Below are positions 1-16,600 of a stretch of DNA of 64,000 nt, piece by piece. This stretch comes from Deltaproteobacteria bacterium (GTDB taxonomy: Bacteria; Desulfobacterota; Desulfobulbia; Desulfobulbales; Desulfurivibrionaceae): the NCBI GenBank assembly GCA_013349285.1, contig DUZU01000008.1, positions 1 to 64,000 on the forward strand, in the 5' to 3' direction. Below the pieces are notes generated by a model. That model had not been told where the DNA came from. It did no database searches and was given only the letters and a program-made list of their open reading frames with translations. Within the stretch, counting starts at the first letter, position 1. Each line of letters begins with the position of its first letter. The translations under genes were made by a program, and so were the position numbers.

Positions 1-248
1 GCCATGAGTTGCCACTCGATAAACTGGTCCGGCGTAGCGGGAAGTTTATCTCCCTCCTCTTGCCAGTTTTTCCACCAGGCCTTATAATCATTGGCGGTAA
101 ATTCGACGCCGTTCAGAGTTACCAGCGGCTTCTCCCCCCAAAACCAAGCATGCGCAGGAGTAGGCAGACAGAAAAAACCTGCACTCAGGGTGAAACAGAT
201 AGCAGCTATAAAACATCCAAACAAGGGACCAGACCCTTTTTTTCCCAT
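1..248 (-). CDS. Secreted PPIase-like protein, N-terminal part only
   Basis: Reading from an ATG at 248-246, the minus strand stays open for 82 codons to the window edge. It encodes a signal peptide with a hydrophobic core and a cleavage-like AHA-W, followed by a segment (LVTLNGVEFTANDYKAWW) that resembles the N-terminal part of SurA/PpiC-type peptidyl-prolyl isomerases, where VNG followed by a short helix is typical. An AGGAG lies about 11 bases upstream of the ATG. The gene overlaps the end of the upstream lipoprotein gene by 43 bases, so it is the last visible gene of the cytochrome operon. A periplasmic foldase would suit an operon that exports a multiheme cytochrome. The isomerase domain is outside the window, so the family call is an inference from a short N-terminus. 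Confidence 0.5.
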   Translation of the reverse strand, partial: MGKKGSGPLFGCFIAAICFTLSAGFFCLPTPAHAWFWGEKPLVTLNGVEFTANDYKAWWKNWQEEGDKLPATPDQFIEWQLM

Positions 249-880
249 AACGTCAATATCTCCTGAACTACTATTTTCGACAAACCGGTTATACTGTTAA
301 CCAGTCCAAAATGGAGCATTTTCCGATACTCCTCACCTTCGCGTCTATGAATAGTGGCCACCAACAATTTGCCGGTGGAACCATCATAGATACACACCCT
401 TACCTCGACTTTCGGTTCAACCGCCTTGCCCCTTACCTTCTCTTCCATGGACAAAATCTCCCCCCCGATAACCCGTTCCACCCCGAGCCGGGAGGCAATA
501 ATCTTGATCTGCTCCGGGGTTGGTTTCACCCATGGCGCCAAGTGCATTTGCCGGTAAATCTTGCGAATATCACCCTCAAGCGTAACCTGCCATGATCCCG
601 CCTGGACAAGCTGCCCCATAAAAATTCGATAAAAGAGCCTTCCTGCCTGATTGTAACCAGTTTTACTGGAAAAAGGAAGAACAGCCACGCTACAAACCAC
701 GCCATAGGGGGCAGGAGAAAACTCCTGCAAATAAGGTCTCTTGTCCTTTACCAGATCAAGACCGACACAGGCGACAATGCCCTGCCCCATCAACAACAAA
801 GAAAACACCAAGCCGACCCGTTTCAGAAACCGGGGCAAGCCACTAAAAGCTACTGCTGCTGTAACCCTTTTAAAAATCAT
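206..880 (-). CDS. CsgG/TolB-N-like outer-membrane lipoprotein
   Basis: The product has 224 residues, with a signal peptide ending in a lipobox-like IVAC near residue 38, so it is probably lipidated. The following segment contains VAVLPFSS, the first strand motif shared by CsgG, GNA1162 and TolB-N type proteins, then a mixed alpha/beta domain that includes RVIGGEIL and a strand on variation of a subunit (VRVCIYDGSTGKLL). It starts inside the end of the upstream gene (11-base overlap) and its own end overlaps the PPIase-like gene, so it is translationally coupled. It is the third CsgG/TolB-N-like protein in a row. Whether it forms a CsgG-type pore is not visible; the transmembrane hairpins of CsgG were not recognised. 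Function unknown; a role in assembly or secretion of the cytochrome is inferred from context. Confidence 0.7.
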   Translation of the reverse strand: MIFKRVTAAVAFSGLPRFLKRVGLVFSLLLMGQGIVACVGLDLVKDKRPYLQEFSPAPYGVVCSVAVLPFSSKTGYNQAGRLFYRIFMGQLVQAGSWQVTLEGDIRKIYRQMHLAPWVKPTPEQIKIIASRLGVERVIGGEILSMEEKVRGKAVEPKVEVRVCIYDGSTGKLLVATIHRREGEEYRKMLHFGLVNSITGLSKIVVQEILTLWEKKGLVPCLDVL

Positions 881-2378
881 CTATCCCGCCAACTTCCGGA
901 GCAATAACCTCTTCCTCCACCTGATCTGAAGAATCCTGGGGAATCATCCCCAGCAAATCCTCAAATTTCCTGGTAATCTTGCCCCCGAAAATATCCTGCG
1001 CGACGAGCACCAACCTTAATTTCCCCTGGTTTTGCCCGGAGGTGGAAGATAAGATAAAACTATAAGGCAGACGATCCCCAGTGGCCTCGCGAATCACAAC
1101 TCCATCTTGACTGAGAATCTCCGCCCGCCAGTAAGACAAGGGCACATCATTGCCGTGACGCAAATCAATAACAAAATCTTTATCCTGCAATTCAACGGCT
1201 ATCTCCAGTTCAGGCGCCCGTCTGAAAACCTGAACCTGAGCGGGGACGGTCACTTCATTTTCAGCCCGATCCCAGGCGCTGAGCTCAATAGTATAATCGC
1301 CGTCCGGCACAAAATGACCATCAGCCAGTTTCCCATGCCAAACCAACCGCTCAGGCATTCCATTGCCGTGGTCGGCCATCAGGACAACTCCATCCTTGTC
1401 TAAAATGGTCATCTTCCAATGAGAGATAAGCTCACTGTCGAGCAGGATGGGTACGATATAGACCTTGTCCCGCAACACGACCCTGTCTTTAAACTTCGGC
1501 CCCAGAACCTGCAGTGAAAGCTGGGGCACGGTTCCGTCAACAAGATAGCTGCCGACAAAAATATTTTCACCATCCGCTCCGGCGCCTGAAACATTCAGGG
1601 TCACCGAATAACGGCCATCATTATCCGGCGCCCGCCACACAGCCTCATAGAGCTCTGCATCTTCACGAAATACGGCCTCAACCTCCCGGGTTCCGACCGA
1701 CAACATAACTTTCCTTTTGCCGAAAACAGCCGGGCTGCCAAACAGCTTAACCCGGCATGTCACCAGCCCGCCGGGCCTCAACACCGCCGGGGCCAAGCTG
1801 ACATTATCAACCAACCGTTGTACCTGTTCGCTGGTTATGGTTGTAAAACTTTTAGGCATGGCCGCCAGCAACCGCTGGAGCGCCATGGCCTCGATATCCG
1901 CAAAGGTCTGGGGCTCTGCCAGCCCCAGCAGGTGCTGAACGTCAACCGTGCACAACTCGCCGCTGCCGGCCCATATCATCCGCACATCCGCCGTTCTAAT
2001 CAACATGGCGGACAGCCCGATAGCCGATGGGGCTTTCTGGCGCAGCTGATTCACCGAGCCGAACAAAATAAAATCGACCCCCAGCTCTTCCCTCAGTTTA
2101 ACCACATTGGTCGAATCGAGATAACCGAGCCAGCGGATTCTATTGCGCACCATGAAGTCAATAACCGCATCTTCGGAAAGAACGGTATGCCCCCCCTGCC
2201 GCAGAGCCGTAATCAGACTTACGGTCAGTGACTGATTATAGCCGTTAACCCCCTGACTGAGATCCTCGATCGGCATAACCGCCAATGTTATCTTTTTTGC
2301 AAAAACAACCCCTGGGGTCATCAACAATGCAATACAGAGCGCAAGAAAGAGCCTGCTATGTCCGGCTTTCAAAACCAT
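870..2378 (-). CDS. Secreted protein with CsgG/TolB-N-like and FlgD-like Ig domains
   Basis: The product has 502 residues with a signal peptide of about 27 residues (core LFLALCIALL, ending VFA). Residues of about 29-185 carry ITLAVMPIEDL and a later GVDFILFGSV, the pattern of the TolB-N/CsgG-like fold. The remainder is beta-rich. Around residues 345-390 it shows a FlgD-type Ig-like signature (WHGKLADGHFVPDGDYTIEL followed by AWDRAEN), a module also common in extracellular and cell-surface proteins. No lipobox was seen, so it may be periplasmic or loosely outer-membrane associated. It lies 12 bases after the preceding lipoprotein gene and overlaps the next by 11 bases. Function is not known; the neighbours suggest a structural or assembly part of the cytochrome locus. 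Confidence 0.7.
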   Translation of the reverse strand: MVLKAGHSRLFLALCIALLMTPGVVFAKKITLAVMPIEDLSQGVNGYNQSLTVSLITALRQGGHTVLSEDAVIDFMVRNRIRWLGYLDSTNVVKLREELGVDFILFGSVNQLRQKAPSAIGLSAMLIRTADVRMIWAGSGELCTVDVQHLLGLAEPQTFADIEAMALQRLLAAMPKSFTTITSEQVQRLVDNVSLAPAVLRPGGLVTCRVKLFGSPAVFGKRKVMLSVGTREVEAVFREDAELYEAVWRAPDNDGRYSVTLNVSGAGADGENIFVGSYLVDGTVPQLSLQVLGPKFKDRVVLRDKVYIVPILLDSELISHWKMTILDKDGVVLMADHGNGMPERLVWHGKLADGHFVPDGDYTIELSAWDRAENEVTVPAQVQVFRRAPELEIAVELQDKDFVIDLRHGNDVPLSYWRAEILSQDGVVIREATGDRLPYSFILSSTSGQNQGKLRLVLVAQDIFGGKITRKFEDLLGMIPQDSSDQVEEEVIAPEVGGIDDF

Positions 2379-2390
2379 TCGTAAACTTTA

Positions 2391-2990
2391 TTAAGCCCCC
2401 CCTCGAGGAATGGTATCCAACAGATCATCCACCAAATCGAGAATAACCTCAAAAGTACCCTTGGCTCCCACCCCGAAAAGACGGCGGCCGAGAGAATCAC
2501 CGCTACCGTTTCCAGTGGCCTGCCAGACAACCAAACCACTCTGGGTATCAAGTAAACGAAGGGTCAAAGTCATTTCCGAGGCACCGGACGAACCCTTACC
2601 GCTTTCGCCGACCTGATCAACCACTCCCAAAAAAATTGCCTGGACACTCAGCCGCTGACCAAGACGACGCAAGGCCTGCGGGTCTAAAGGTTCACCGGGT
2701 TGAACATTTTCCTCCCGCAGAATGCTGTCGACCACTCCCTTATCCGCCACATCGAAAACCCTGGACGACAACATCTGGGTTATGGTTATATCACGCACCA
2801 TTTCAGACACATATTGATCTTTGCTGTTGTTGGAAAACGGCAACACCGCAATTTTTTTTATAAACCCGAAATCAACATTTTCGCGAAAAAAAGGCTGCGC
2901 TCCCCCAGCTGTTTGCAAAATGCATCCATTAGCAAACAGCATCAAAAACAAAACACTAAATCTACCGGCAATAATCATTTTTTTTAACAT
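2391..2990 (-). CDS. CsgG/GNA1162-like lipoprotein
   Basis: The product has 199 residues from the ATG at 2990, chosen because AAGGA sits about 8 bases before it; an ATG 36 bases further upstream lacks this signal. The N-terminus is a lipoprotein signal (LMLFANGC). Then comes KIAVLPFSNNS, the hallmark first strand of the GNA1162/CsgG-like family, and helices ending in a typical VVWQATGNGSG motif shared with CsgG-like proteins. It follows the beta-barrel gene and is 12 bases upstream of the 502-residue protein. It is the first of three related proteins in the operon. CsgG itself forms an outer-membrane export channel for curli, but small GNA1162-like members are lipoproteins without a demonstrated pore, so the function remains open. 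Confidence 0.75.
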   Translation of the reverse strand: MLKKMIIAGRFSVLFLMLFANGCILQTAGGAQPFFRENVDFGFIKKIAVLPFSNNSKDQYVSEMVRDITITQMLSSRVFDVADKGVVDSILREENVQPGEPLDPQALRRLGQRLSVQAIFLGVVDQVGESGKGSSGASEMTLTLRLLDTQSGLVVWQATGNGSGDSLGRRLFGVGAKGTFEVILDLVDDLLDTIPRGGA

Positions 2991-3073: not shown

Positions 3074-5164
3074 TCACTGGGTAGAAAAACGGGCAAAAAC
3101 ACGGCCCGCCATCTGCCAGGTCTTCTCGATGCCGGTGTCGGAGAATGATGCGTTCCCTTGAAAATCAAAATGGTTACTTAACTTCCAACTCATAAAAAAA
3201 TTATAGCCCTGAGTTATTTGATCGCTGGTCTTACCGTAATTATAGCCCAAACTTGTTTGAATTTTGCTGGTGGCGGCCAAAAAGGCGGAGAGACTCAAAG
3301 TTCGATTAACCATGACCGAATCGGCCCAACTTTGACCAACCCCGGCATTGAGAGAAAGCATGTCTGACTTGCGCCAGTTTACACTGAAGGTTGCATCCAT
3401 ACTATCAGAGGTTGTTGTCGCATGTGCTTGCCTATATGACCCGTTAAAACTTGCCGTCATCCTCGGAACCAGCCGGGCCGTCAAATTCAGAGTTGTATCA
3501 TAACTCTTACTTGAGGATGAGTCATTCTCATTCTTACTATCGCTATAATTCAAAGCCAGACGCCCACCTAGATCGGGATAAAGCTGGGCGGATGTCGATA
3601 TGCCAACCCCCTGGCTGACATTCTGCAACACCCCGTCATCATAATTCTCGGTTCGGGTCAGACCGAAATCCATATTCAGAGTTGGTAACAATACCGACCC
3701 GATATTCAAACTATAGTTTCGCCCAACAGACTCAGGGGAGTTTCCTGATTTATCCTGGCTCTGACTTAGCGCCAAAGAGGAGTTCAAAAAATCAAAAGGC
3801 TGCCACCGCAATTGCCCTGAGTGTGAACTCTGCTCGCTGGTCAAGCCGGAATAAAGGTCGCTACTGTTCATGGAAAAAGCATAGCTCACCGACATGGCCG
3901 GAGAGAAGGTGTAGCCTAAATTAATATCAGTACCCATAGAGGTCTGTTTCTTATCCAGGGTCACGGTTGAAGCGGAACTTAAAACCTCGTCATAGATCTC
4001 AATTTCGGTAAAATCAACCTGAACAGCGGCGGAACTACTGGTGACGACAAACTTCAACCAGCGGGTCTGCAGGCTGGACACCGTAAACTCAAAGCGACGC
4101 TCAGCGGAATTATACAAACAGGATGGGGAGAGCACGGTGAGATTAGCGGTATTAAGCACCCAATCGGTACCATTGACGCTGGTGTAAAGATCAAAGGTAA
4201 AAGCGGCAACGTTGGCGGCTTCATCCTCATCGGTATAGAGATAGATCAGATCAACTTCATTATAGTCAACGGCAAAGGCGATATTAAGAGGCGGCGGCTC
4301 AGAGCCATCGGTAAAAACATCCCCCGGCGTCTCTGTATTGCCGTCGCGCAGAAAGCTCTTGGAAGTAAGTTCCCCGACCGAGGAGATAAGGGGGGTGTCG
4401 TCGGTGCCGGCCAACACCTGGGAAATAACCTGTTTTATGTCGGCCGTACCGCCTGAGCCAACCGCTGCGGAAGACGCGCTTGTATTCAGGCCAAACTGCT
4501 GGGATGCCCCCAATCTGAGCTTATTATCCAGAAATGTTTGATCCGTAACCAACCTGGCCATGTGGTTGGTGTTTTGCTGATTGGTTTGCCGCACATTATT
4601 GGTTGTATCGGACAAATCAAAATTATAATTGAACTGACAATACTTTAAATCCCAACCGATATTGGCGCTCTCATCATAAGATTCGGTGTCAACCACGCTC
4701 GGCGACCTGTCATCCTTCCTGTAATCTTCACTGTAGGACAATCTCAAGGTGGGCCAAAAAGGTTTATTCCATTTACTGCTCCACGATGATTGCCATGCAC
4801 TGGATTGGGTATTGGCGGAGGAGGAATTCTTACGTTGACTGACCCGGCCATCAAGGTCAAAGGAAAAAAGGTAATTGTCCAGAGTCAAACCCAGGGAGGG
4901 ATCATAACTCTCGGTAATCACCCCCTCATTGCGCCCCTGGGAATATCGAAAAGACTCAGAGAGCTTCATGAGTTCAGTAAGTCCCTGGGAGAGGCTGAAT
5001 GAATAATTAACCCGTTGCTGATCAGTGGCCTCCTGCCCTTTGCTCTTATTATGGAGCCATTGGCCGGAGAGATTCTGCGAAGCAAAAATCTCTCCGGGGC
5101 CAACCACGAGCAAGATCAGCAGCAAGAGCAGGCCGAAAAAAAGAGAATTAACATATTGTCCCAT
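3074..5164 (-). CDS. Outer-membrane beta-barrel with discoidin-like insertion
   Basis: The product has 696 residues with a long hydrophobic signal peptide (FFGLLLLLILLVV). Residues about 30-230 and 400-690 alternate polar and aromatic residues in repeated strands ending in short turns (for example NLGYTFSPAMSVSYAFSMN), the look of a large transmembrane beta-barrel. Between them, around residues 250-395, sits a different domain with FTFDLYTSVNGTDWVL and RWLKFVV, which resembles the F5/8 type C (discoidin) fold and would lie in an extracellular loop. The gene is immediately downstream of the 16-motif cytochrome gene. Porin-cytochrome conduits in related bacteria place a barrel and multiheme cytochromes together, so a conduit or an exit pore for the filament cytochrome is an inference. 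The family could not be named from sequence alone. Confidence 0.7.
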   Translation of the reverse strand: MGQYVNSLFFGLLLLLILLVVGPGEIFASQNLSGQWLHNKSKGQEATDQQRVNYSFSLSQGLTELMKLSESFRYSQGRNEGVITESYDPSLGLTLDNYLFSFDLDGRVSQRKNSSSANTQSSAWQSSWSSKWNKPFWPTLRLSYSEDYRKDDRSPSVVDTESYDESANIGWDLKYCQFNYNFDLSDTTNNVRQTNQQNTNHMARLVTDQTFLDNKLRLGASQQFGLNTSASSAAVGSGGTADIKQVISQVLAGTDDTPLISSVGELTSKSFLRDGNTETPGDVFTDGSEPPPLNIAFAVDYNEVDLIYLYTDEDEAANVAAFTFDLYTSVNGTDWVLNTANLTVLSPSCLYNSAERRFEFTVSSLQTRWLKFVVTSSSAAVQVDFTEIEIYDEVLSSASTVTLDKKQTSMGTDINLGYTFSPAMSVSYAFSMNSSDLYSGLTSEQSSHSGQLRWQPFDFLNSSLALSQSQDKSGNSPESVGRNYSLNIGSVLLPTLNMDFGLTRTENYDDGVLQNVSQGVGISTSAQLYPDLGGRLALNYSDSKNENDSSSSKSYDTTLNLTARLVPRMTASFNGSYRQAHATTTSDSMDATFSVNWRKSDMLSLNAGVGQSWADSVMVNRTLSLSAFLAATSKIQTSLGYNYGKTSDQITQGYNFFMSWKLSNHFDFQGNASFSDTGIEKTWQMAGRVFARFSTQ

Positions 5165-5320: not shown

Positions 5321-7087
5321 CTACCTGCTCGGCTTTATCTTGGGACTGCTCCGGTCGTATGATTTGGGGGCATGACAACCCACAACACAGGTGCCGCCGG
5401 TTGTGGTTTTGGTAATTGAAATCGGATAGGACCAAGCGCCAAAGGGGACGTCATAACGGATATGCTTGGCCTGGTTGCTGGCATGGGGATCATGACAGGC
5501 AACGCAGTTTCTGCCTTTCTTGCGGTTCACATGGAAAAAATGAAGGTTGTACTCACCATCGCGAAAGTTGGTGAGGGTCTTGGTGAATTTCTTTTTTGCT
5601 ATATCTTTATTATGACAGCCGAAGCAAAGATCATAATTGTCCGAGTCGTAATCCTTATAAAACTCCTCGGGAAAGTATCGCACTAAAATCCGACTATTTT
5701 TTGAGCCATGCACCTTATGACAGGCCATGCAATCACCGGTCTGCACCGGTCCATGGCGAAATTTACTGCCGGCAACATTATCACTCAACTCATCATGGCA
5801 GGAGAAACAGAGTTTTTCGGTGGAGGCGGCCAACAATGACCGCTCATTGGAGGAATGGGGCCGATGGCACGAGGTACACTTGCCCTGGGCGACCGGCTCA
5901 TGTTTGTACACCGCGGTCTCGATATCGTCAAAAACCTTGGGGCTCAACTTTTTATGACAGCCGGCACAGAGGGCATCCGCTTTTTTATGAAGTTGAAAAC
6001 GGGTATCGGAACTGTGCGGGTCATGACAAAGGTTACAATCTTGACCAACCGGTTTATGAACATGCTTCATGGTGAATTCATCCTGCCGATCCTTATGACA
6101 CTGAAAACAGACCTCGCCTTTCGCGGAGGGCGCTATGAGCAGACTGGCATTTTTGCTGGCATGGGGTTGATGACAGGCAATACAATCACCGGCGCCTACC
6201 GGGCCGTGCCGGAATTTCTTGGTAAAAATGGCGGCCTCATGACAGGTGAAACAGAGACTGCTGACACTGGTCCCGTTGCCGCGCAGCTGAAAACGCATCG
6301 CGGATTCATGGGGATTATGGCAATCGATACAGCCCTCCTCAACCGGGGCGTGCACAACCTCGTTTTTGAACTCTTCCCGCTTGGCCTGGTGGCAGACCAA
6401 ACACAACTCCTGGCCGGTGCGCTCAATGGCCATCGGCTCGAAGGAGCCATGGGGGCTGTGGCAGGAAATACAGATCCCGGCGCCAACCGGGCCATGAACA
6501 TGGGCGGCCTTGCCCATCTTGCTGTGACACCCGCCGGTGGTACAGTTGGCCCGAACGGGAATTATCCGCTGGTAATCAAATTTGCCCCGCCGAAACTTGT
6601 GACATTCTTTACAGTCAAGCGACGCGGGGGAGGCATGAACAAAAAACCTCTTAAAGCCTTTGGGGGCCTTGCCACCTTTGGCCGCATCTTTGGAGGAGAG
6701 ATAATAAACCTTGACACTCTTCTGTAACTTGCCGGCGGCTAGCTCGATAACGTTCTCACCATCTTTCAAGTGAATCAACGAGCCGAAGGAACCGCTGTCA
6801 ACCTCGATAATACCGTTGGGGTTCTTATTGCCGACCCCTTTGATCGTTACCTTGGTCGCTTCGCTGTCAATCAGGCGCCCGGCTAAAAATAAATCCTTTT
6901 CAGAAACCCAGACCATATCCGGGGGCGAGACTACGACCAACTGAGGGATTGCTTGCGGAGGCGCGGCCAACAGGCGCGATGGAAAAGAGACTGAGCCGAG
7001 CAGTATCATCAAGATAACGATGACTAAATCAATCAGCCGAATGCCGTGTCCTGAACCAAAACCACCCTGCGCCACTTCCTTTGCCAA
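5321..7087 (-). CDS. 16-motif c-type cytochrome with Ig-like N-terminal domain
   Basis: The product has 588 residues. The start is a TTG at 7087, supported by GGAGG seven bases upstream. A hydrophobic segment at residues 17-42 is a signal peptide or anchor. Residues about 47-132 form an Ig-like beta domain, then fourteen CXXCH motifs follow from residue 159, many in the doubled CXXCH pattern (CIDCHNPH, CIACHQPH). Two further sites are non-canonical: CTTGGCH (CX4CH) and, near the C-terminus at 567-572, CVVGCH (CX3CH). This could give 16 hemes. It lies downstream of the OmcS-like gene and its terminator and upstream of the beta-barrel gene. It shares its layout (Ig-like domain, then tandem hemes) with the decaheme protein at 11954-13132. 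A periplasmic or surface electron conduit is likely. Confidence 0.9.
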   Translation of the reverse strand: MAKEVAQGGFGSGHGIRLIDLVIVILMILLGSVSFPSRLLAAPPQAIPQLVVVSPPDMVWVSEKDLFLAGRLIDSEATKVTIKGVGNKNPNGIIEVDSGSFGSLIHLKDGENVIELAAGKLQKSVKVYYLSSKDAAKGGKAPKGFKRFFVHASPASLDCKECHKFRRGKFDYQRIIPVRANCTTGGCHSKMGKAAHVHGPVGAGICISCHSPHGSFEPMAIERTGQELCLVCHQAKREEFKNEVVHAPVEEGCIDCHNPHESAMRFQLRGNGTSVSSLCFTCHEAAIFTKKFRHGPVGAGDCIACHQPHASKNASLLIAPSAKGEVCFQCHKDRQDEFTMKHVHKPVGQDCNLCHDPHSSDTRFQLHKKADALCAGCHKKLSPKVFDDIETAVYKHEPVAQGKCTSCHRPHSSNERSLLAASTEKLCFSCHDELSDNVAGSKFRHGPVQTGDCMACHKVHGSKNSRILVRYFPEEFYKDYDSDNYDLCFGCHNKDIAKKKFTKTLTNFRDGEYNLHFFHVNRKKGRNCVACHDPHASNQAKHIRYDVPFGAWSYPISITKTTTGGTCVVGCHAPKSYDRSSPKIKPSR

Positions 7088-7236: not shown

Positions 7237-8307
7237 TTAACTATTATCCTTGGTAGTATGACAGGTGAAACAACCGGTATTACCAGTGACGCCGTTATGC
7301 GCATCCATGGTGCTGTAGTTCCAGCGCAACAGATCGGCGTATGGCGAACCATGGGCCCGATGACAAGAAACACAGACCACAATACCGTTACCGGCGGTTT
7401 GCACGTTGGTGTTCACCAAAGTAGTAACCACGCCACTGGTAAGAACGGAAGTAGCCACCGGAGCCTCAACCGAATAGGTGGTGTAATACTGATATTCCTT
7501 ATTGGCCTTGTCCACGATTGAAGAAAGATCGAAATCGGTTGGATGCCTTACCCATGGTGAATCCATGGCGCCGGCATAGCTGATCTCGCCGGCACCGGTA
7601 TGAAAGGTGCCGTGACACTGGGCACAGAGAGCACTGATGGTCCCAGCATCATCAGCGGTACCATTATCAGTACCCCGATCAACCCCGTAATACTGGTTAT
7701 GATCGCCAGCCCCATTGGTATACTCCCAGTTGGTGTCTTCCTTACCCAGAATCCCGCTCAGGAAACGATAACTGCCGGCCAGAGATAGGCCGTTAACAGT
7801 CGAGTCATTGCCATGATGGGCGCCGGACATCGCGGTAAACTGATCTAATTCAGTCTTTTTCCCATGGCATCCGGCGGTACCGGCGCAGGTGATCTGGGTG
7901 GCCAAAGCGGTGCCACCGTTACCCGGAGGGGTGATCCCAAGGGCACCATCGCGTGTGGCAATACCCTGGACGTTATGGCCGGCAGCATCACTGCCATCGG
8001 CAACCCACTTGAAGTTACCTCCGGCAAGGGTGTTGGTGCCATAAGCCGCAGTTGTACTAATGACATAGGGAATATCGTTAAGGCCATCATTGGTTCCGGT
8101 ATGACAACCGACACAACCGCCCTTGGTCAAGGCCCTGCTCACCCCGGCGGCAACAACGTCGACACCGTCTTGGCTGTTATGCATGGTATGACAACCTGAA
8201 CAAACCCCGGAAACCCTGGCTCCGGCAACGGCCGGCAGCATCCAGATCGCCCCCACGACGCTAGCTGCAACAACTATTGATTTTGTACTAATAAGCTTTT
8301 TCATCAT
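7237..8307 (-). CDS. OmcS-like hexaheme extracellular cytochrome
   Basis: The product has 356 residues with a signal peptide cleaved near residue 30 (VAGA). Heme motifs are CSGCH (36-40), CVGCH (65-69), an unusual CAGTAGCH (CX5CH, 141-148), CAQCH (228-232), CVSCH (312-316) and CFTCH (346-350), six in all. Low-complexity Gly/Asn/Thr-rich stretches lie between them. Several landmarks match what I remember of Geobacter OmcS in the same order: CxGCHTMHNS at the first heme, GGNFKWV, GHN, SYRFLSG, a C-x-x-CH followed by xFH and RHP, CxSCHRAHxS with a following RWNY, and a last heme at the C-terminus. OmcS polymerises into extracellular filaments with six hemes per subunit. AGGAGGAG precedes the ATG pair at 8307; the first ATG was taken. 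Polymerisation is inferred, not shown. Confidence 0.85.
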   Translation of the reverse strand: MMKKLISTKSIVVAASVVGAIWMLPAVAGARVSGVCSGCHTMHNSQDGVDVVAAGVSRALTKGGCVGCHTGTNDGLNDIPYVISTTAAYGTNTLAGGNFKWVADGSDAAGHNVQGIATRDGALGITPPGNGGTALATQITCAGTAGCHGKKTELDQFTAMSGAHHGNDSTVNGLSLAGSYRFLSGILGKEDTNWEYTNGAGDHNQYYGVDRGTDNGTADDAGTISALCAQCHGTFHTGAGEISYAGAMDSPWVRHPTDFDLSSIVDKANKEYQYYTTYSVEAPVATSVLTSGVVTTLVNTNVQTAGNGIVVCVSCHRAHGSPYADLLRWNYSTMDAHNGVTGNTGCFTCHTTKDNS

Positions 8308-8910: not shown

Positions 8911-10251
8911 TCAAACAAAGGGATTAACAATATTATAATCCGCTATTTTTTTGCGCAGGGTGGTCGGCGAAATAGCCAGACGCTTTGCGGCTTGGCTGAT
9001 ATTCCACTGCAAGTCGGCAAGAGTTTTTACAACATGCGCCCGCTCCGCCTCGGCAAGGGTAACCGGCTCAAGGGACTCACCCCCCCCGGCCTCCGGGGTC
9101 ACCATCCGCAGGTCATCAGCCGCCAGCATCGCATCGGTGGACAACACCACCGAGCGGGTCAAAACATTTTCCAACTCCCGCACATTGCCGGGCCAGTCAT
9201 AGGCCATCAACTTTGCCATTGCCCCTTGGCCGAGAACAGGCTTGCCGCGCTGAAACCTTGAGGCAATCCTGGCCAGCAACACTTCAACCAGCAGCGGAAT
9301 ATCCTGCCGCCGCTCACGCAGGGCCGGCAGAACAAGCGCCGAAACACTCAAGCGATAATAAAGATCCCGCCGAAAACGGCCCTGGCGGACGAGCTCCTCA
9401 AGGTCACAATTGGTAGCAGCCACCACCCTCGCCTTAAAGGGTATAACCTCAAGCCCACCCACCCGCACAAACTCCTCTTCCTGCAGAACCCTTAACAGCT
9501 TACCCTGTAGATCCATGGGCATATCGCCAATCTCATCGAGAAAAACCGTGCCCGCCTTGGCATATTCCAGCTTGCCGATCTTGAGCCGGTCAGCTCCGGT
9601 AAAGGCGCCTTTTTCATGGCCGAAGAACTCGCTCTCGAGCAGGGTCGAAACCACCGCCGAGCAATTTACCGCCACAAAAGGCTCGTCCGGCGAACTGGCC
9701 CCATGCAGAATCCGAGCGGCCAACTCCTTACCGGTTCCTGATTCGCCGCCGATTAGCACCGTCACCTTGCTGCGGGAAAGCAGGCCGATGGCCTTATGCA
9801 CCTCAACAATCAAGGGATGGCCGCCGATCATCTCGACCTGCCCCTGCTCCGCCCCCATGCCCACCGGCTCCTTGCTCGCCCCCCCGCCCTGGGCGCGATG
9901 CCGCGCCACCCGCTCGATCAACGCGGAGATATCATCGAAATCAAGGGGCTTGCGCAGATAATCAAAAGCACCGTTCCGCATGGCCTCAACCGCCGCGTTA
10001 TTATCTGCCTCGCCGGTCATTATGACCACGGTGGGCAAGGAGGAGCCGGTCAAAAATTGAGGTAAGGCCTTCAAGCCGCTCTGATCCGGCAGATTGAGAT
10101 CAAGCAGAACTAACTCGGGCACAAAGCCCTCAACCTGGGCGAACCCGGAATGAACATCAAAAGAGCACCGCACCTCATGGCGCTTAAGCCCTAACTGCAG
10201 CTGCAAGGAGCGACAAAGCGCCTGATCATCGTCAACAATAAGTATTTTCAT
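8911..10251 (-). CDS. NtrC-family sigma-54 dependent response regulator
   Basis: The product has 446 residues from the ATG at 10251, which has GGGAGG nine bases upstream and begins MKILIVDDD as receivers do; a longer frame upstream lacks these signs. The receiver has D7-D9, phospho-acceptor D51 in LLDLNLPD and K101. The AAA+ domain has Walker A GESGTGKE (169-176), GAFTGA (215-220) for sigma-54 contact and Walker B VFLDEIGD (about 236-243). A Fis-type helix-turn-helix closes the protein. It should activate sigma-54 promoters. No kinase is next to it on the same strand, but the orphan-looking histidine kinase at 14546-16600 ends the divergent arm of the locus and is the natural partner. Its targets are probably the two cytochrome arms. 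Confidence 0.95.
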   Translation of the reverse strand: MKILIVDDDQALCRSLQLQLGLKRHEVRCSFDVHSGFAQVEGFVPELVLLDLNLPDQSGLKALPQFLTGSSLPTVVIMTGEADNNAAVEAMRNGAFDYLRKPLDFDDISALIERVARHRAQGGGASKEPVGMGAEQGQVEMIGGHPLIVEVHKAIGLLSRSKVTVLIGGESGTGKELAARILHGASSPDEPFVAVNCSAVVSTLLESEFFGHEKGAFTGADRLKIGKLEYAKAGTVFLDEIGDMPMDLQGKLLRVLQEEEFVRVGGLEVIPFKARVVAATNCDLEELVRQGRFRRDLYYRLSVSALVLPALRERRQDIPLLVEVLLARIASRFQRGKPVLGQGAMAKLMAYDWPGNVRELENVLTRSVVLSTDAMLAADDLRMVTPEAGGGESLEPVTLAEAERAHVVKTLADLQWNISQAAKRLAISPTTLRKKIADYNIVNPFV

Positions 10252-10855
10252 TACCGCAAACCTCCCAGCCACACCCCTTCCGAAAAAATTCAAGTAGAGA
10301 GTATATATAAAGATACAGCCAACATAAAAACACTTGAAGAAATTACCATAAAGCAAATATGGGTTATACCCCACGAAGGCCAGGAAAAAAAATAAAAACA
10401 GCCGATATACTTCGCGGCTAACTAATCAAGTTGAGCCCCATGCAGTTTACCTCTTATCAGTATCAATCTCGCCCCTGCCCGAAACCCCAAGCTTGAGTTT
10501 AACATTTTTTCACGAGAGCGGATTTCTTCGCGACCAACACCGCGACCCACATCTATCTATTTAATTTTACAACAGAAGTCAGCAATCAGCAAAACAAACA
10601 GCCCCCAAGCAACCCCCAGCCAAGCCAAAGTTAACAACCAGCTGCAACGACGGTATCATTATCCTTTTTTTTACAATAAGCTATTGATCATTCATTAAAT
10701 TAAATGTATAAAATATTGAAATCTGGCAATAATCCCCTAACTCTTCCCAGCCAGAACACTTTTAAACAATCACCTCCCATGCTCAAACTTTACCTTTTAT
10801 TTCACGGCATTAGGGGAAATTGCGCTTTGTCACCCACAAGAAAACGAGGTTACAA
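10252..10855. other. Divergent intergenic region between regulator and plus-strand cytochrome arm
   Basis: These 604 bases separate the minus-strand regulator gene from the plus-strand arm. No protein-coding frame is convincing. The stretch around 10630-10760 is AT-rich and contains the candidate promoter at 10684-10712. I searched for GG-N10-GC sigma-54 sites on the plus strand and found none that also keep the flanking consensus. Confidence 0.5.
10684..10712 (+). promoter_or_regulatory. Candidate promoter of the TPR/decaheme/NHL arm
   Basis: TTGATC (10684-10689, four of six) and TATAAA (10707-10712, five of six) are separated by 17 bases in an AT-rich context. The predicted start near 10719 leaves a leader of about 137 bases before the chosen TTG start. 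Confidence 0.45.
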
Positions 10856-11893
10856 TTGAAAATTAAATATAGCTTTCACACTGTCATTTTCTGTTTTTTA
10901 TTTACTTTCTGCGCATTCATTACCACCGGTTCGGCCGAATCTTTTCCCTTCCGCTCGGTGAGCCCTGGGGACACCTTGCCCGCGACCACCGTGACCAGCA
11001 TTAATTCCGGTAAAGAAATGACGATCGGTCAGCACACGGGGCGGCCCACCGTCCTCGTGTTTTGGGGCGGAGATCTGCCCACCAAAAAACAACGGGCCAT
11101 CACCGCACTCACCCAGCTCCATGAACTTGCTCCGTTTTTGAAAGAAAAAAAAGTTGACATGGAAATCATTAATGCCCTGGGTGACACTTCGGCGACCATC
11201 ACCGAAGTAACCTCGGCCGCCGGAATCAGCGGTGAAACCTACGTCGACCAGGATCAAAAGACATACGGCAGCCTGGGGATTTTCGTAATGCCGGCAATCA
11301 TGCTGGTCGACCCGAAGGGTAAGATCGTAACCGGGATGGGGTACAGCCACAACATGATCCCCAGACTCCAAGGAGAAATAGAAATATTACTCGGCGAAAA
11401 AACCAGGGAACAACTTGAAAAAGATCTCCACCCCACCATGGTCGACAAAAGCGAAGAAGAAAAGGACGCCAACCGGCACCTTAACATGGGAAAAATCATG
11501 ACCATGCGCGGCCAGCTGGAACCAGCGGTCCGGGAATTCAAATCAGCCATTGAAAAAAATCCCAAACTCGGCGCCGCCCAGATTGAATTGGGCTGCCTCT
11601 ATGTCCAATTGGACAACCTGACCGAAGCACAGAAGGCCCTTGACCTTGGACTTGAGATGGAACCAGGCTCCCTGGAAGGGGAGATCTGTTATGCCCAGAT
11701 TCAGGCCAAGCAGGGCAAGGTGGATGAAGCGATCGGCGATCTCCAGGCCCTTTCCTTCCGCAATGGCCGCAACCCCGACCTTCATTATGTTCTCGGCACC
11801 TTATTGGTCCAAAAAGGCGCTTTCGACAAAGCGGCCGCCGAACTAAGCAAGGCCTATGAACTGCTGAACAAACAGAAAAATTTTGAACATTAA
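10856..11893 (+). CDS. Secreted thioredoxin-fold protein without CXXC, fused to TPRs
   Basis: The product has 345 residues from a TTG at 10856, chosen because GAGG lies six bases before it; a TTG at 10820 is possible but its GGGG is too close. A signal peptide (VIFCFLFTFCAFITTGSA) directs export. The next 140 residues have the TlpA/ResA-like layout (PGDTLPATTV, then VLVFWGG, and a cis-Pro-like VMPAIMLVDPKGKIV), but the place of the W-C-x-x-C catalytic motif reads WGGDLP, with no cysteine. It is therefore unlikely to exchange disulfides. The C-terminal part (about 200-340) contains tetratricopeptide repeats, with residues such as AAQIELGCLYVQLDN. It leads the plus-strand arm, 60 bases before the decaheme gene, and may be a binding scaffold or chaperone for cytochrome maturation or assembly. 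Confidence 0.85.
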   Translation: MKIKYSFHTVIFCFLFTFCAFITTGSAESFPFRSVSPGDTLPATTVTSINSGKEMTIGQHTGRPTVLVFWGGDLPTKKQRAITALTQLHELAPFLKEKKVDMEIINALGDTSATITEVTSAAGISGETYVDQDQKTYGSLGIFVMPAIMLVDPKGKIVTGMGYSHNMIPRLQGEIEILLGEKTREQLEKDLHPTMVDKSEEEKDANRHLNMGKIMTMRGQLEPAVREFKSAIEKNPKLGAAQIELGCLYVQLDNLTEAQKALDLGLEMEPGSLEGEICYAQIQAKQGKVDEAIGDLQALSFRNGRNPDLHYVLGTLLVQKGAFDKAAAELSKAYELLNKQKNFEH

Positions 11894-11953
11894 CCACGAA
11901 TAACAAAAACCGGTCCAAGGCAAGAGCAGAATAAAGACAGACAAAGGTTGACA

Positions 11954-13132
11954 ATGAAAATTCCGGTTATACCCACTGTTGGTAACCAATTCGCGCAAAC
12001 CGGCATGGCCATCGGCCTGCTGGTTTGCCTTTTTTTTAGCGCGACTCTCCTGTCACCCCGGCCCGCACTTGCCGAAGAACCGGAAATTCTATCTCCGCCC
12101 GCCGATGCCATCATCTATGCCAGGGGACCGCTCACCCACGTCATAGTCCGGCAAAAAGACACCCGCACCGCCAATCAGGTGCGAATCAGAACAAGCGACG
12201 ACACCCTGATCGCACCGGTAAGAATCCAACCTGGAAAAGATTACTCATACATCCATTTCGAGGTGCCGCTGATCCCCGGCAAAAACCTTTTTGAAATTAC
12301 GCCCTCCGGCAAAGAACTTTCCGTCAAATATCGACCGCTGCGCTCATTGTTAAATGCCAAGTTCAATGCCAAGAATGTCTACCTCTTCCACCGCACCGAA
12401 GCAATCCCGGCCTCCTGCAGCCAATGTCACAACCCGGATAAGATCAAACCGCTCGAAGGCATCAGCGGCCAGGCTCAACCGCTGTGCTATTCCTGCCATA
12501 AAAACATCCTGGACCAAGCAGTATGGAAACATTCGCCGGCGGTCAACATGCAGTGCCTCGCCTGCCACCAGAAATCCGAGTCACCGCTGACGATCTCCAT
12601 TCCGGAAGGCAAAGTGGAATCAACCTGCTTTAAATGCCATACCAACAAAAAGTCATGGCTGGCCAAGAACCATATCCATGGCCCGGTGGGAACCGGCGAC
12701 TGCACGGTGTGCCATAATCCCCACGGCGACAATTACTATTCCCAACTCTGGGCCGACGGCAAGGCGGAACTCTGTGTCGCCTGCCACACCGACAAGAAAA
12801 CATTAATCGAAGATGATAGCCCGATCTATTACATCCACGGCATTCTCAAAGGCGCAGGCTGCACCATCTGCCACAGCCCCCATGCCACTGATATTCGGTT
12901 CCAGCTTTACAAACCGATCAACGAACTCTGCACCAGTTGCCACACCGCATTAAAGGGGGTCACCAAGGGCCACCCGGTGGGCGGCCATCCGAACACCGGG
13001 GTAAAAGACCCGCGGCGGCCGGAAAGAATGCTGGCCTGCACCAGCTGCCACAATCCCCATGGCTCGGACTTCAAGTTTCTACTCATTGGTGATATCTTAG
13101 GCGGACATGTGTGCAGTCAATGCCATAACTAA
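11954..13132 (+). CDS. Decaheme c-type cytochrome with Ig-like N-terminal domain
   Basis: The product has 392 residues from the ATG at 11954, with AAAGG six bases before it. A signal peptide ends near ALA at residue 40. Residues about 44-130 form an Ig-like beta domain; ten CXXCH motifs follow from residue 155 to the last residues: CSQCH, CYSCH, CLACH, CFKCH, CTVCH, CVACH, CTICH, CTSCH, CTSCH and CSQCH. Several are doubled-CXXCH units with xPH after the motif. The layout matches that of the 16-motif cytochrome on the opposite arm, suggesting a duplicated pair. Its end overlaps the beginning of the longer NHL reading frame. It is likely periplasmic and carries electrons between the inner membrane and the outer-membrane parts. 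Confidence 0.93.
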   Translation: MKIPVIPTVGNQFAQTGMAIGLLVCLFFSATLLSPRPALAEEPEILSPPADAIIYARGPLTHVIVRQKDTRTANQVRIRTSDDTLIAPVRIQPGKDYSYIHFEVPLIPGKNLFEITPSGKELSVKYRPLRSLLNAKFNAKNVYLFHRTEAIPASCSQCHNPDKIKPLEGISGQAQPLCYSCHKNILDQAVWKHSPAVNMQCLACHQKSESPLTISIPEGKVESTCFKCHTNKKSWLAKNHIHGPVGTGDCTVCHNPHGDNYYSQLWADGKAELCVACHTDKKTLIEDDSPIYYIHGILKGAGCTICHSPHATDIRFQLYKPINELCTSCHTALKGVTKGHPVGGHPNTGVKDPRRPERMLACTSCHNPHGSDFKFLLIGDILGGHVCSQCHN

Positions 13133-13145
13133 GGAAATACGTTTG

Positions 13146-14492
13146 ATGCCGAACTCCGACCAGCAGCAAACAGCAACCGCCACCATAACGCCGCGGCCCC
13201 GCAAAGCTCCTCGGTGGTATGGACTGCTGATCTTGGCGCTTACCTTTTTGCCGGTTCCGTCTCTCCATAATCCTTGGCCCGCCCAGGCAGCGGAAAACGA
13301 ACCGGGCCAGCAGATGGTCAGCATTGCCACCATCCTTACCCAGGACATGGAGGGCAAACCCCTCCGCTTTCCCTCGGCGGTGGCCTTTGACAAGGACCAG
13401 GAAGAGCTGTACCTGATCAGCAACAGCAAGGACGGCATTATCGTCTATGATAATGACTTTTTCCCATACATCGCATTGGGCAAGGGAAGAGGGATCACCG
13501 CCCCGACCGGTATTTTTTTCGATGGGCAAAGCGGAGATATTTATATCTGCCAAGATTTGGCGCCACCAAAACCGCCCCGGCTGACCATCGTCAACAGCGC
13601 GTTTTTTCTGCGTAAAGAGATAACCTTTAAACAAATGCCCGATGGCGGCAACTTCAGCCCCAAATGCGGAACGATCGGCAAAAACGGCAACATCTATCTC
13701 GCCGGCAACAACACCAAAGGCGTTCTTGTTCTTGACAAGGACGGCAACTATCTCCGCTGGCTGAAACCGCTCGACCTGGTCCGCGCCCCAACCGCAAAAA
13801 CCGACGAAACCGCCCAGGAACCAAATGGTCTAACCGAAGTTTCGCAAAATGAATTGAATCTAACCGAACCCTCTCCTGAGGCAAAAGAGGCCGACGAAGG
13901 CTTTGGCCTGCCTGAAAATCTTCGCCCGAAATCAAGCTCCATGGCCCCCCCCAGGAAAGACGGTCGCGAGATGGCGCCGGTACAAATCGTTAATGTAACT
14001 TCCGACCAGGATGGCCATCTCTTCCTGCTGAGCGAAGACACCAGCAAAGTTTATGTCTACAGCCCCTCCGAAACCCTGCTCTTCTCTTTCGGCGAAAAAG
14101 GAGGCTCCGGCGGCAAAATGAGTCGCCCCCGGGGAATCGCCGTCGATGACAACAAAAAATGCATTTATGTCGTCGATTATATGCGCCAGACCATCCTGGT
14201 TTTTGACATGGGCGGCAAGTTTATCTTTGAATTCGGCGGGCGCGGCACCGGCCCCTTATGGTTTAATTTCCCCACCTCGGTCACCACCGACCGTCTTGGA
14301 CGAATAATTGTGTCCGATCTATTCAATCACCGGATCCAGATCATGAAACCGTCTTTCGACATGAGCTTTCCTCTTTTTTATGACGCTAATAAAGCCGAAA
14401 ACAAGCTGAAAGAAGAAACGGAAGGGAGCCCCGAGGAAATCGGACCCGCGCCTCAAGACGACTCTTCAATATTTTTCAAAGACAACGATTAA
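13146..14492 (+). CDS. Secreted NHL-repeat beta-propeller protein
   Basis: The product has 448 residues from the ATG at 13146, preceded by AAGGA about nine bases away. A signal peptide or anchor follows at residues about 22-45 (WYGLLILALTFLPV). The rest contains repeated blade motifs of the NHL/six-bladed propeller type: FPSAVAFDKDQEELYLISN, APTGIFFDGQSGDIYICQD, RPRGIAVDDNKKCIYVVDY and FPTSVTTDRLGRIIVSDLFNHRIQI. A Pro/Glu-rich low-complexity insert separates the third and fourth blades (about 220-270). The gene follows the decaheme cytochrome by 13 bases. Propeller proteins of this kind are repeatedly found beside multiheme cytochromes in Geobacter-like bacteria, from memory, and their role is unclear. 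Confidence 0.85.
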   Translation: MPNSDQQQTATATITPRPRKAPRWYGLLILALTFLPVPSLHNPWPAQAAENEPGQQMVSIATILTQDMEGKPLRFPSAVAFDKDQEELYLISNSKDGIIVYDNDFFPYIALGKGRGITAPTGIFFDGQSGDIYICQDLAPPKPPRLTIVNSAFFLRKEITFKQMPDGGNFSPKCGTIGKNGNIYLAGNNTKGVLVLDKDGNYLRWLKPLDLVRAPTAKTDETAQEPNGLTEVSQNELNLTEPSPEAKEADEGFGLPENLRPKSSSMAPPRKDGREMAPVQIVNVTSDQDGHLFLLSEDTSKVYVYSPSETLLFSFGEKGGSGGKMSRPRGIAVDDNKKCIYVVDYMRQTILVFDMGGKFIFEFGGRGTGPLWFNFPTSVTTDRLGRIIVSDLFNHRIQIMKPSFDMSFPLFYDANKAENKLKEETEGSPEEIGPAPQDDSSIFFKDND

Positions 14493-14545
14493 CCCAAGAA
14501 AAGCCATTGGACCTGATTGTCGGCAGATAGTTTGAACATAAGGCC

Positions 14546-16600
14546 GTGCCGGCCAACTCTGTAAAAAACAAACAGGGCCGGCGGCAATTACAAGTTTTCA
14601 CCCAAAAGGATGTTATTAAAAATTTCATCTTGCGTTGTTGCCTCCTATATGTAATCACATTAAAGGTGATCACATATAAATTCCCCCATCTATTCTCACG
14701 GACGTCCAGCATAAAGACCAAGGTCTTTATCTGTGTTTTTATCGCCCTTGCCGGATACTTTATCGCCACCCTTTCCAGCTTCTACGCGAGCAGCACCCAG
14801 ATCACCCGGCTCACCCGGCTGCAGAACGTTTATTTTCCCCTGGCGATGATGGCCGACGACCTGGTTTCCTCGTTTAAAAAACAAACGGATCTATATAATG
14901 ATGCATTTATTTCCGGAGAGACCGGAAAAATAATTGAGGCGGAGCTTATCAGCAATACCGTATCTCAGTTATTCGACCACCTGGAAAAAGTGGTGGCCCA
15001 CGACCCGACTCTTAGCCATGAACGGATACAGATTCCTGAATTAAGAAATAGATACCGCGATTTTTATAAACTTGCCGCCAAGATCTCGCCGAGACGCAAA
15101 CCAAACACCGCCGCGGATCTGCAACAAAAAAGACTGACCTTAGTCAACATGCAGAACACGCTGCTTAGCGACTTTAACGATCTTGCCCACCATTTTTCCA
15201 AAGTTACCGAACAGGCCATTCAAAATGAAAAGCGCTTTTCTCAAGCCAACAACATCTTTCTCGGCATCTTTTTCGTTTTGGTCTTAATCGTTGCCGCCCT
15301 GTCCAGTCGCTGGTTTGCAAACCAACAGTTGATCACCCCCCTTGCCCGCATCCAGGAAATGGTTTCCCGCTTTGCCCGGAACAAGACGGTCGCGCCACCG
15401 CCGCCCCATGGCAACCGCAATGATGAAATCCATAAGCTGGCCACCTCCTTCTGGAACATGACCGAAGAACTCAAGCAGACCATGGTTTCCAAAAACTACG
15501 TCGACAACATTATCAAACGGATGACCGGCCCCCTCATGGTGCTGTCCCCAAATCACTCGGTGATAAAAACCAACGACAACTCGGCAAAACTGCTTGGTTT
15601 TTCTGAAAAAGAGATGTTGGGCCGCCCGATTACCGATTTTGTGGCGGAGGAGTCGCTTGAGTTGTTTGCAGAACAGGGGCTCCAAACCCTGGCCTTAGGG
15701 GAGGACGTCATTAATCTGGAAATATTTTTCCTTAAAAAAGACCACACGACAATCTCGGTTTTATTTTCGGGCTCTGTTATGTTTAACAATCTTAACTTAC
15801 CCGAAGCGGTGATCTGCGTTGCCAACGACATTACCGCCCACAAAAAAGCGGAAGAAATGCTGCGCAAAATCGAGATAGAACAGGCACTGGCCAAAACCGC
15901 CACCCTGGCAGCCATCGGCGAGTTGACCTCCAGCATCGTTCACGAGATGCGCAATCCCCTCTCGTCGATCAAGATGAACACCAAGGCCATCCACCAAAAA
16001 TTAGTGGCAACGGATGACGTTTTTGCCGAACTTGCGGCAATAACCATCCAGCAATCCCTTCGGCTGGAAAACATGCTCAATGACCTGTTGAGCTACGGGA
16101 AACCCTTATCCCTTCAAATAAGCCCGATCACGGCCGAAGAACTGATCAGCGCCACCCTGAACTCGGTGGCCCAAGAAAAAAACGAGAGAAAAATAGGGGT
16201 GGAAATCAGCAATGAACTAGGCGAACGAATCCTGCATCTGGACAAGGAGCTTTTCACCAGAGCGCTGTCCAACCTGGTATTAAATGCCATCCAATGGTCG
16301 CCGCCGGAAAGCAAAGTGCAGGTCTTGATCTCTGCCGCCGACAACCCCTGCCACCAATCGGAGCAGTTAATCTTTGAGGTTAGAGACCACGGCCAGGGAA
16401 TAAACGAGGAAAAGAAACAGCGCCTCTTCCAACCCTTTTTCACCACCCGCAGGGATGGTATCGGCCTGGGGCTGGCCAATGTCAGAAAAATCGTGGACTA
16501 CCATGGTGGCAGGGTAACGGCGGAAAACAGCAACAGGGGCGGCGCGGTATTCACCATCATGATTCCGGCGGAGATAGCACAACGCCGCCTGCCGTCTTAA
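14546..16600 (+). CDS. Membrane histidine kinase with PAS domain (likely partner of the NtrC-type regulator)
   Basis: The product has 684 residues if the GTG at 14546 is used; this start has no good ribosome binding site and about the first 50 residues have no recognisable domain, so the true start may be further in (for example TTG at 14630 or GTG at 14668). TM1 is at about 58-80, a periplasmic loop of about 155 residues follows, then TM2 (237-256), HAMP, PAS (about 322-435), HisKA with H466 in SIVHEMRNP, and a HATPase with NLVLNAIQW, DHGQGI and GIGLGLANV. It lies 53 bases after the NHL gene and is convergent with the PilZ gene. It should phosphorylate the regulator at 8911-10251. The input signal is unknown. 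Confidence 0.9.
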   Translation: MPANSVKNKQGRRQLQVFTQKDVIKNFILRCCLLYVITLKVITYKFPHLFSRTSSIKTKVFICVFIALAGYFIATLSSFYASSTQITRLTRLQNVYFPLAMMADDLVSSFKKQTDLYNDAFISGETGKIIEAELISNTVSQLFDHLEKVVAHDPTLSHERIQIPELRNRYRDFYKLAAKISPRRKPNTAADLQQKRLTLVNMQNTLLSDFNDLAHHFSKVTEQAIQNEKRFSQANNIFLGIFFVLVLIVAALSSRWFANQQLITPLARIQEMVSRFARNKTVAPPPPHGNRNDEIHKLATSFWNMTEELKQTMVSKNYVDNIIKRMTGPLMVLSPNHSVIKTNDNSAKLLGFSEKEMLGRPITDFVAEESLELFAEQGLQTLALGEDVINLEIFFLKKDHTTISVLFSGSVMFNNLNLPEAVICVANDITAHKKAEEMLRKIEIEQALAKTATLAAIGELTSSIVHEMRNPLSSIKMNTKAIHQKLVATDDVFAELAAITIQQSLRLENMLNDLLSYGKPLSLQISPITAEELISATLNSVAQEKNERKIGVEISNELGERILHLDKELFTRALSNLVLNAIQWSPPESKVQVLISAADNPCHQSEQLIFEVRDHGQGINEEKKQRLFQPFFTTRRDGIGLGLANVRKIVDYHGGRVTAENSNRGGAVFTIMIPAEIAQRRLPS
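14646..14678. promoter_or_regulatory. 33-base imperfect palindrome at the 5' end of the histidine kinase gene
   Basis: The stretch runs TATATGTAATCAC, a seven-base centre, GTGATCACATATA; 14 of 16 base pairs of the dyad match. It lies inside the longest possible reading frame of the kinase but before its first transmembrane segment. Its GTGATCACA half is reminiscent of CRP/FNR-class or GntR-class operators. It might be an operator if the true start of translation is downstream or close to it. Confidence 0.5.

Follow-up and report, generated by a model that had tools for sequence, protein, structure and literature searches.

A split OscG and PelC-like domains in an osc-type nanowire cluster of a Desulfurivibrionaceae bacterium

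What are three tandem genes for related envelope proteins doing beside a putative filament cytochrome? The question arises at one end of contig DUZU01000008.1 (C8; assembly GCA_013349285.1) of a deltaproteobacterium of the Desulfurivibrionaceae, of which bases 1-64000 (the window) were analyzed. The initial annotation of the window had described the three genes, here called A, B and C, as CsgG/TolB-N-like, and had suggested that next to an extracellular cytochrome they could stand for a hitherto undescribed, curli-like exit route for a nanowire subunit. According to the available text of a 2025 review, how OmcS wires are secreted and anchored in the membrane is still a matter of speculation (PMC12307469). 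We find that the genes are part of a conserved cluster that gene order and comparison with named relatives identify as the osc (omcS-companion) cluster known from Geobacter. Our analysis suggests, with a probability of roughly two in three, that A, B and C together form the collar on the periplasmic side of an export machine of the osc type.

The three genes lie in tandem on the minus strand, as had been noted, and encode the motif AVLPF (A and C) or AVMPI (B). A (2391..2990, ATG at 2990) specifies a lipoprotein of 199 amino acids with lipobox NGC and a predicted PelC/GNA1162/LpoB-type fold, and C (206..880) a lipoprotein of 224 amino acids with lipobox IVAC and a PelC/TolB-N-like domain. B (870..2378) encodes a protein of 502 amino acids with a signal sequence but no lipobox, probably periplasmic, in which a PelC/TolB-N-like domain is followed by FlgD/SiiE-like Ig domains; motifs, lipoboxes and signal sequence were all read from the sequence. 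C and B overlap (gap of -11 bases), and 12 bases separate B from A. The Ig-like domains of B have profile matches in the PDB to 2yn3 (E 1.9e-4) and FlgD, with a Pfam FlgD_ig match below the cut-off (20.9 vs 27). A exceeds the Pfam cut-offs for CsgG (24.4 vs 20.8 bits) and LpoB (26 vs 22.3 bits) and also matches TIGR02722. B and C do not reach the Pfam CsgG and LpoB cut-offs, and for C Pfam gives only a weak DUF3313 match. An A profile matches C in 37/37 sequences and the B of window-type clusters in 30 of 41 (full-sequence E < 1e-3), and the domains of A, B and C align by hhalign with a probability of 98.8-99.7%. Because these profile comparisons connect them, the three appear to belong to one fold family, and the shared fold proposed initially is borne out as a CsgG/TolB-N/PelC-fold. 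Besides the lipobox cysteine, C63 and C220 of C are conserved in at least 90% of 21 relatives and possibly form a disulfide.

The cluster runs across a contig joint. Upstream of A follow BAR (3074..5164), which encodes a predicted outer membrane beta-barrel, a gene for a 14-heme c-type cytochrome (5321..7087) whose N-terminus matches Glucodextran_B below the threshold, and a gene for an OmcS-like cytochrome (7237..8307), all on the minus strand and with successive gaps of 83, 156 and 149 bases. On the other side, C8 begins inside X, a minus-strand gene for an OscH-like PPIC-type peptidyl-prolyl isomerase (PPIase), of which the window contains the part for the N-terminus (1..248, start at 248) before the contig end truncates it. 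The ends of C8 and of a second contig of the same genome (C1) share an exact overlap of 127 bases. C1 contains the remainder of X with the Rotamase domains (G000:C1:3-1574), and then genes for two cytochromes, with 26 hemes (C1:1540-3501) and 16 hemes, for an NHL protein, for another OmcS-like cytochrome (OMC2) and for a beta-propeller protein. The window thus holds one half of the cluster and C1 the other, in the joined order BAR-A-B-C-X-26h-16h-NHL-OMC2-propeller.

In named Geobacteraceae, a hexaheme gene is followed by eight genes in the order propeller-BAR-A-B-PPIase-26h-16h-NHL (for example in loci L098 and L127); in L093, this block is separated from the hexaheme gene by an NHL gene. A recent paper, in the part available, links a block of eight genes (GSU2500-GSU2493), located downstream of hexaheme gene GSU2501, to OmcS maturation and secretion, and strains with a block of this type include H2geo, L1geo and luticola (PMC12977616), which are L095, L127 and L099 among the loci we compared. 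Another paper, likewise available in part, gives oscC as GSU2501, oscI as GSU2495 and oscJ as GSU2494, describes OscI and OscJ as cytochromes, and lists proposed roles in folding (OscH), secretion of OmcS (OscE, OscF and OscG) and morphology (OscD) (PMC13194489). Counting along the block, the propeller is OscD, BAR is OscE, A is OscF, B is OscG, the PPIase is OscH, and the 26-heme and 16-heme genes fall at the positions of OscI and OscJ. Pfam supports the assignment with matches to YNCE and Lactonase for the propeller and to Rotamase for the PPIase. Together, synteny, profiles and a domain tree (below) point to A as OscF, to B plus C as OscG, to BAR as OscE and to X as OscH. Compared with the osc cluster of G. 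sulfurreducens (Shen et al. 2025, as described in citing papers), the same genes occur in the same order beside an OmcS-like cytochrome; the differences are that OscG is split here into B and C, that B has gained Ig domains, that a 14-heme cytochrome gene precedes BAR, that the propeller (OscD) is at the far end, and that the OmcS-like cytochrome has a CX5CH site.

The cluster may carry a second name. In Desulfobacterota sulfate reducers, the oetABI genes adjoin omcX/omcS-like genes, and the barrel OetI has been read as an electron conduit (Murali et al. 2023, PMC10553843, available text). The OetABI cassette of syntrophic sulfate reducers resembles our cluster in having a barrel and large cytochromes beside omcX/omcS-like genes in Desulfobacterota, and differs in its interpretation as a conduit; the word "CsgG" does not occur in the available text of that paper. 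Judging by this description, the oet cassette is very likely the same cluster and OetI the same protein as BAR. Secretion was the subject of a 2025 publication on the cluster, and electron transfer, it appears, of one from 2023 that named it oet. As the homologues OscE, OscF and OscG have already been assigned to secretion (PMC13194489, in the part available), the nanowire exit route proposed in the initial annotation gains support but was not undescribed; what had been noticed, accurately, is part of a known nanowire cluster, and the proposal as a whole is partly supported. A literature search, which did not reach the primary osc paper (Shen et al. 2025), found no paper linking CsgG or PelC to the cluster among those listed, judged by title or opening lines of the abstract. 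New here are the split OscG, the one-to-one mapping of the three domains between cluster types, and the comparison with PelC.

For these comparisons, A was searched in 97 genomes (relatives, own genome included) and matched in 60. The stretches compared comprise 40 that nearly all surround such matches, 20 from the phylum and 58 named loci obtained by a scan with five Geobacter-type A proteins, 118 altogether. L065, a weak CsgG-profile match from the own genome, lacks A and was left out, leaving 117 stretches with A (L033-L150); 8 of these repeat the same contig, so that distinct loci number about 109, and L085 and L114 differ by 100 bases. Loci were counted by a stop-to-stop scan; the gene caller missed genes in GC-rich loci. 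By this count C is present in 45 of 46 window-type loci, the sole exception being L064, and in 0/71 Geobacter-type loci.

In Geobacter-type loci, the counterpart of C lies within OscG, whose C-terminal half is hit by a C profile in 32/32 proteins (best independent E-value 1e-20). In an all-against-all hhalign comparison, the top scores were 225 for OscF with A, 184-189 for the N-terminal half of OscG with the N-terminal domain of B, and 159-170 for the C-terminal half of OscG with C; C itself scores 160 against A, as good as its match with OscG. The same pairings appear in a tree of 78 domains (13 drawn at random from each of six groups; quick method, no bootstrap), with Shimodaira-Hasegawa-like approximate likelihood ratio support of 98 for B with the N-terminal half of OscG, 90 for A with OscF and 85 for C with the C-terminal half of OscG. 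The propeller family, used as a control, gave no match to the A profile or the C profile. These comparisons argue that OscG, a single protein in Geobacter, corresponds half by half to the N-terminal domain of B and to C, and that in window-type clusters OscG is divided and B carries additional Ig-like domains. Since both halves pair in this way and A pairs with OscF, both cluster types appear to retain three related domains. The idea that C is an extra gene without Geobacter counterpart was dropped in view of the match to the second half of OscG in all 32 proteins. Three genomes contain both cluster types (L051/L068 in G041, L050/L069 in G071, L082/L081 in G104). A clear lipobox is missing from four OscF proteins (L110, L123, L128, L132) whose records bear the label Acidobacteria or Vicinamibacterales, although their relatives have one.

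The association of A with the other genes of the cluster is tight. Among the 117 stretches, BAR is found in 115, B in 109, a gene with at least 4 CXXCH motifs in 110 and one with at least 20 in 98; the 7 without a multiheme gene are five stretches of 4.6-9 kb and one locus of about 20 kb that is represented twice (L085, L114). Cluster order is kept in most of the 40 stretches. In 395 genomes of the phylum, strong A (at least 130 bits) occurs in 49, the 26-heme protein (at least 500 bits) in 49 and both in 45 (Fisher p 1e-49, a value that ignores shared ancestry); the cut-offs were set after viewing the lists, at visible gaps. Strong A without a full 26-heme gene is found in G314, G439, G283 and G422, of which G283 and G422 have a piece of it at a contig end, and the 26-heme protein without strong A in G373, G445, G278 and G254. 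A therefore co-occurs tightly with the 26-heme cytochrome, and a wide occurrence of the genes without cytochrome filaments, raised in the initial annotation as a point that would count against it, is not what these numbers show.

What kind of protein is A? A model built from a 37-sequence alignment of window and named-locus proteins (predicted local distance difference test score, pLDDT, 87; predicted template modelling score, pTM, 0.77) has its best Foldseek match in G. metallireducens PelC (E 4.9e-9). By VIA, PelC reaches Z 15.2 with a root-mean-square deviation (rmsd) of 2.6 over 138 residues, followed by FlgT (13.2), GNA1162 (12.6), TolB (12.3) and CsgG (up to 11.8, rmsd 4.8); LpoB is also in the fold list. 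Of two sequence profiles of A, one is led by PelC, the other by GNA1162 and then PelC. PelC also leads for C (E 2.4e-7). A thus has a predicted PelC-like fold. In the PelBC exopolysaccharide exporter, a set of twelve PelC lipoproteins rests on that rim of the PelB barrel which faces the periplasm (PMC12141448, available text). The likeness to PelC (5t0z, 5t10, 5t11, 9h80) lies in the best fold and the best PDB profile match, and in a lipoprotein gene adjoining a barrel gene; one difference is that PelC has a single domain type where there are three here. No pel genes were found among ten window proteins scanned with Pfam.

The adjoining barrel is conserved as well. BAR of the window is an OscE (OetI) homologue by profile match, and the window-type and Geobacter-type families align by hhalign with a probability of 100% over 640 columns, against 0.5% for the propeller-family control. 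The family was modelled on the member from Geobacter sp. AOG1, the window protein being 1 of 39 alignment rows at 18% identity. The model (pLDDT 86, pTM 0.64) has 30 strands of at least 10 residues, a count taken on the DSSP line and not of closed-barrel strands, and no tetratricopeptide repeat (TPR) helices. We take the family to be predicted outer membrane beta-barrels. At residues 285-412 of the model (L093), a long insertion separates barrel strands; it contains short strands and is predicted with lower confidence.

These findings suggest a model for the export of the OmcS-like cytochrome, in which we infer ring, docking, substrate and direction from PelBC. Lipid anchors would hold A and C in the inner leaflet of the outer membrane, and together with B they would form a mixed ring of three domain types. 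The ring would dock on BAR at its periplasmic rim, in the way that twelve PelC dock on PelB. In the periplasm, the OmcS-like cytochrome, loaded with heme, would fold with the help of the PPIase; the collar would collect and position it, and the wide barrel would release it. The 26-heme and 16-heme cytochromes may supply electrons to the base of the wire.

The collar has to be weighed against other readings. CsgG shares the fold superfamily, A exceeds the Pfam CsgG cut-off and CsgG chains are among its fold matches, so that A alone, or A with B and C, could form a transmembrane pore out of hairpins, in the manner of curli export. We consider this very improbable. The model of A, the one of the three proteins that was modelled, contains no membrane hairpin: there is no strand between residues 164 and 178, where we take the second CsgG hairpin to lie, and only a short turn at 130-137, presumably the place of the first. 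Moreover, CsgG residues 153-165, 13 residues that we take to be the location of its first membrane hairpin, are missing as an insert from all six domain groups (A, B, C and the OscF and OscG domains), the hhalign probability to E. coli CsgG is below 2%, a separate barrel gene is present, and the ten window proteins scanned with Pfam include neither CsgE nor CsgF. We reject a CsgG-type pore on the hairpin-free model of A and the missing insert, and with PelC as best fold and a barrel gene adjoining, the CsgG-type mechanism of the initial proposal is not supported. It is also improbable that the three proteins work in the manner of LpoB or TolB, as activators of cell-wall synthases or by making an opening in the wall at the site where the wire emerges. 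The LpoB and TIGR02722 matches of A, and LpoB and TolB in its fold list, would fit such a role; PelC coming first by A sequence profile and by structure, the strict linkage to barrel and cytochromes, and the lack of a synthase among the scanned cluster genes speak against it.

A further reading, which we regard as unlikely, follows the oet description of a porin:cytochrome conduit encoded beside omcX/omcS-like genes (PMC10553843, available text): BAR would be the porin sheath around a multiheme cytochrome (OetA/OetB with OetI), A, B and C would assemble or stabilize it, and the filament would exit elsewhere. The 26-heme and 16-heme genes sit in the same cluster as BAR, and the first Foldseek match of the BAR model is MtrB of the Mtr complex (E 2.4e-9, template modelling score 0.38), which is also first in VIA (Z 15.1, rmsd 9.5). 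The next barrel, however, has Z 14.9 and others are within 1 Z; as this lead is small, the match shows a large barrel and no more. We know of no Mtr-type conduit with three PelC-like proteins. The citing papers, in the parts available, connect these eight genes with the maturation and secretion of OmcS (PMC13194489, PMC12977616). Several points nevertheless weigh against the collar. What seems to be the same barrel was read as a conduit (Murali et al. 2023, PMC10553843, available text), and the Osc letters rest on gene order, G. sulfurreducens not being recognized among the genome sets compared. PelC Trp-149, a membrane residue, and Asp-119, a barrel contact (PMC12141448, available text), are replaced by other residues in the profile alignment of A to 9h80. 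PelB has a TPR stalk, needed for PelBC assembly, that is absent from BAR, and 16 strands where BAR has far more. Because Trp-149, Asp-119 and the TPR stalk lack counterparts, we do not class A as PelC; it may work like PelC.

The substrate of the proposed export machine would be the cytochrome encoded at 7237-8307 (356 amino acids, 5 CXXCH and one conserved CX5CH). A 16-sequence profile matches OmcS alone (6ef8, E 3.1e-23); a PDB search with the single sequence gave no match. Its adjacency to A, B and C thus stands, as does its probable membership of the OmcS family, and filament formation by it is putative. The CX5CH site, CAGTAGCH, is at codon 141 and has both cysteines and the histidine invariant in 16/16 aligned relatives; it is near the position of a normal CXXCH in OmcS and may be an unusual heme site. 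In three loci, the 26-heme and 16-heme genes occur as one gene for 1010-1041 amino acids with 42 CXXCH (L044:14359-17391, L064:8416-11541, L070:14846-17911). The cluster is flanked in the window (8911-16600) by genes for a sigma-54 response regulator, a redoxin-TPR protein, a multiheme cytochrome, an NHL protein and a histidine kinase, several of which recur beside the cluster in close relatives. A scan of the window with a strict sigma-54 promoter pattern gave 0 matches, with 0.07 expected.

The domain mapping gives the osc-type export machine a concrete, testable architecture of collar and barrel, in which three PelC-like domains are a conserved unit, and the analysis connects two separately named gene sets, osc and oet. 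More tentatively, and rather doubtful as a whole, A, B and C might take turns around a single ring beneath a barrel that has roughly double the strand number of PelB. Such a gate would export a heme-loaded protein in folded form and would remain wired to the filament base, so that the barrel would be exit and electron port at once. If true, such a barrel would reconcile the reading of osc as secretion with that of oet as conduit.

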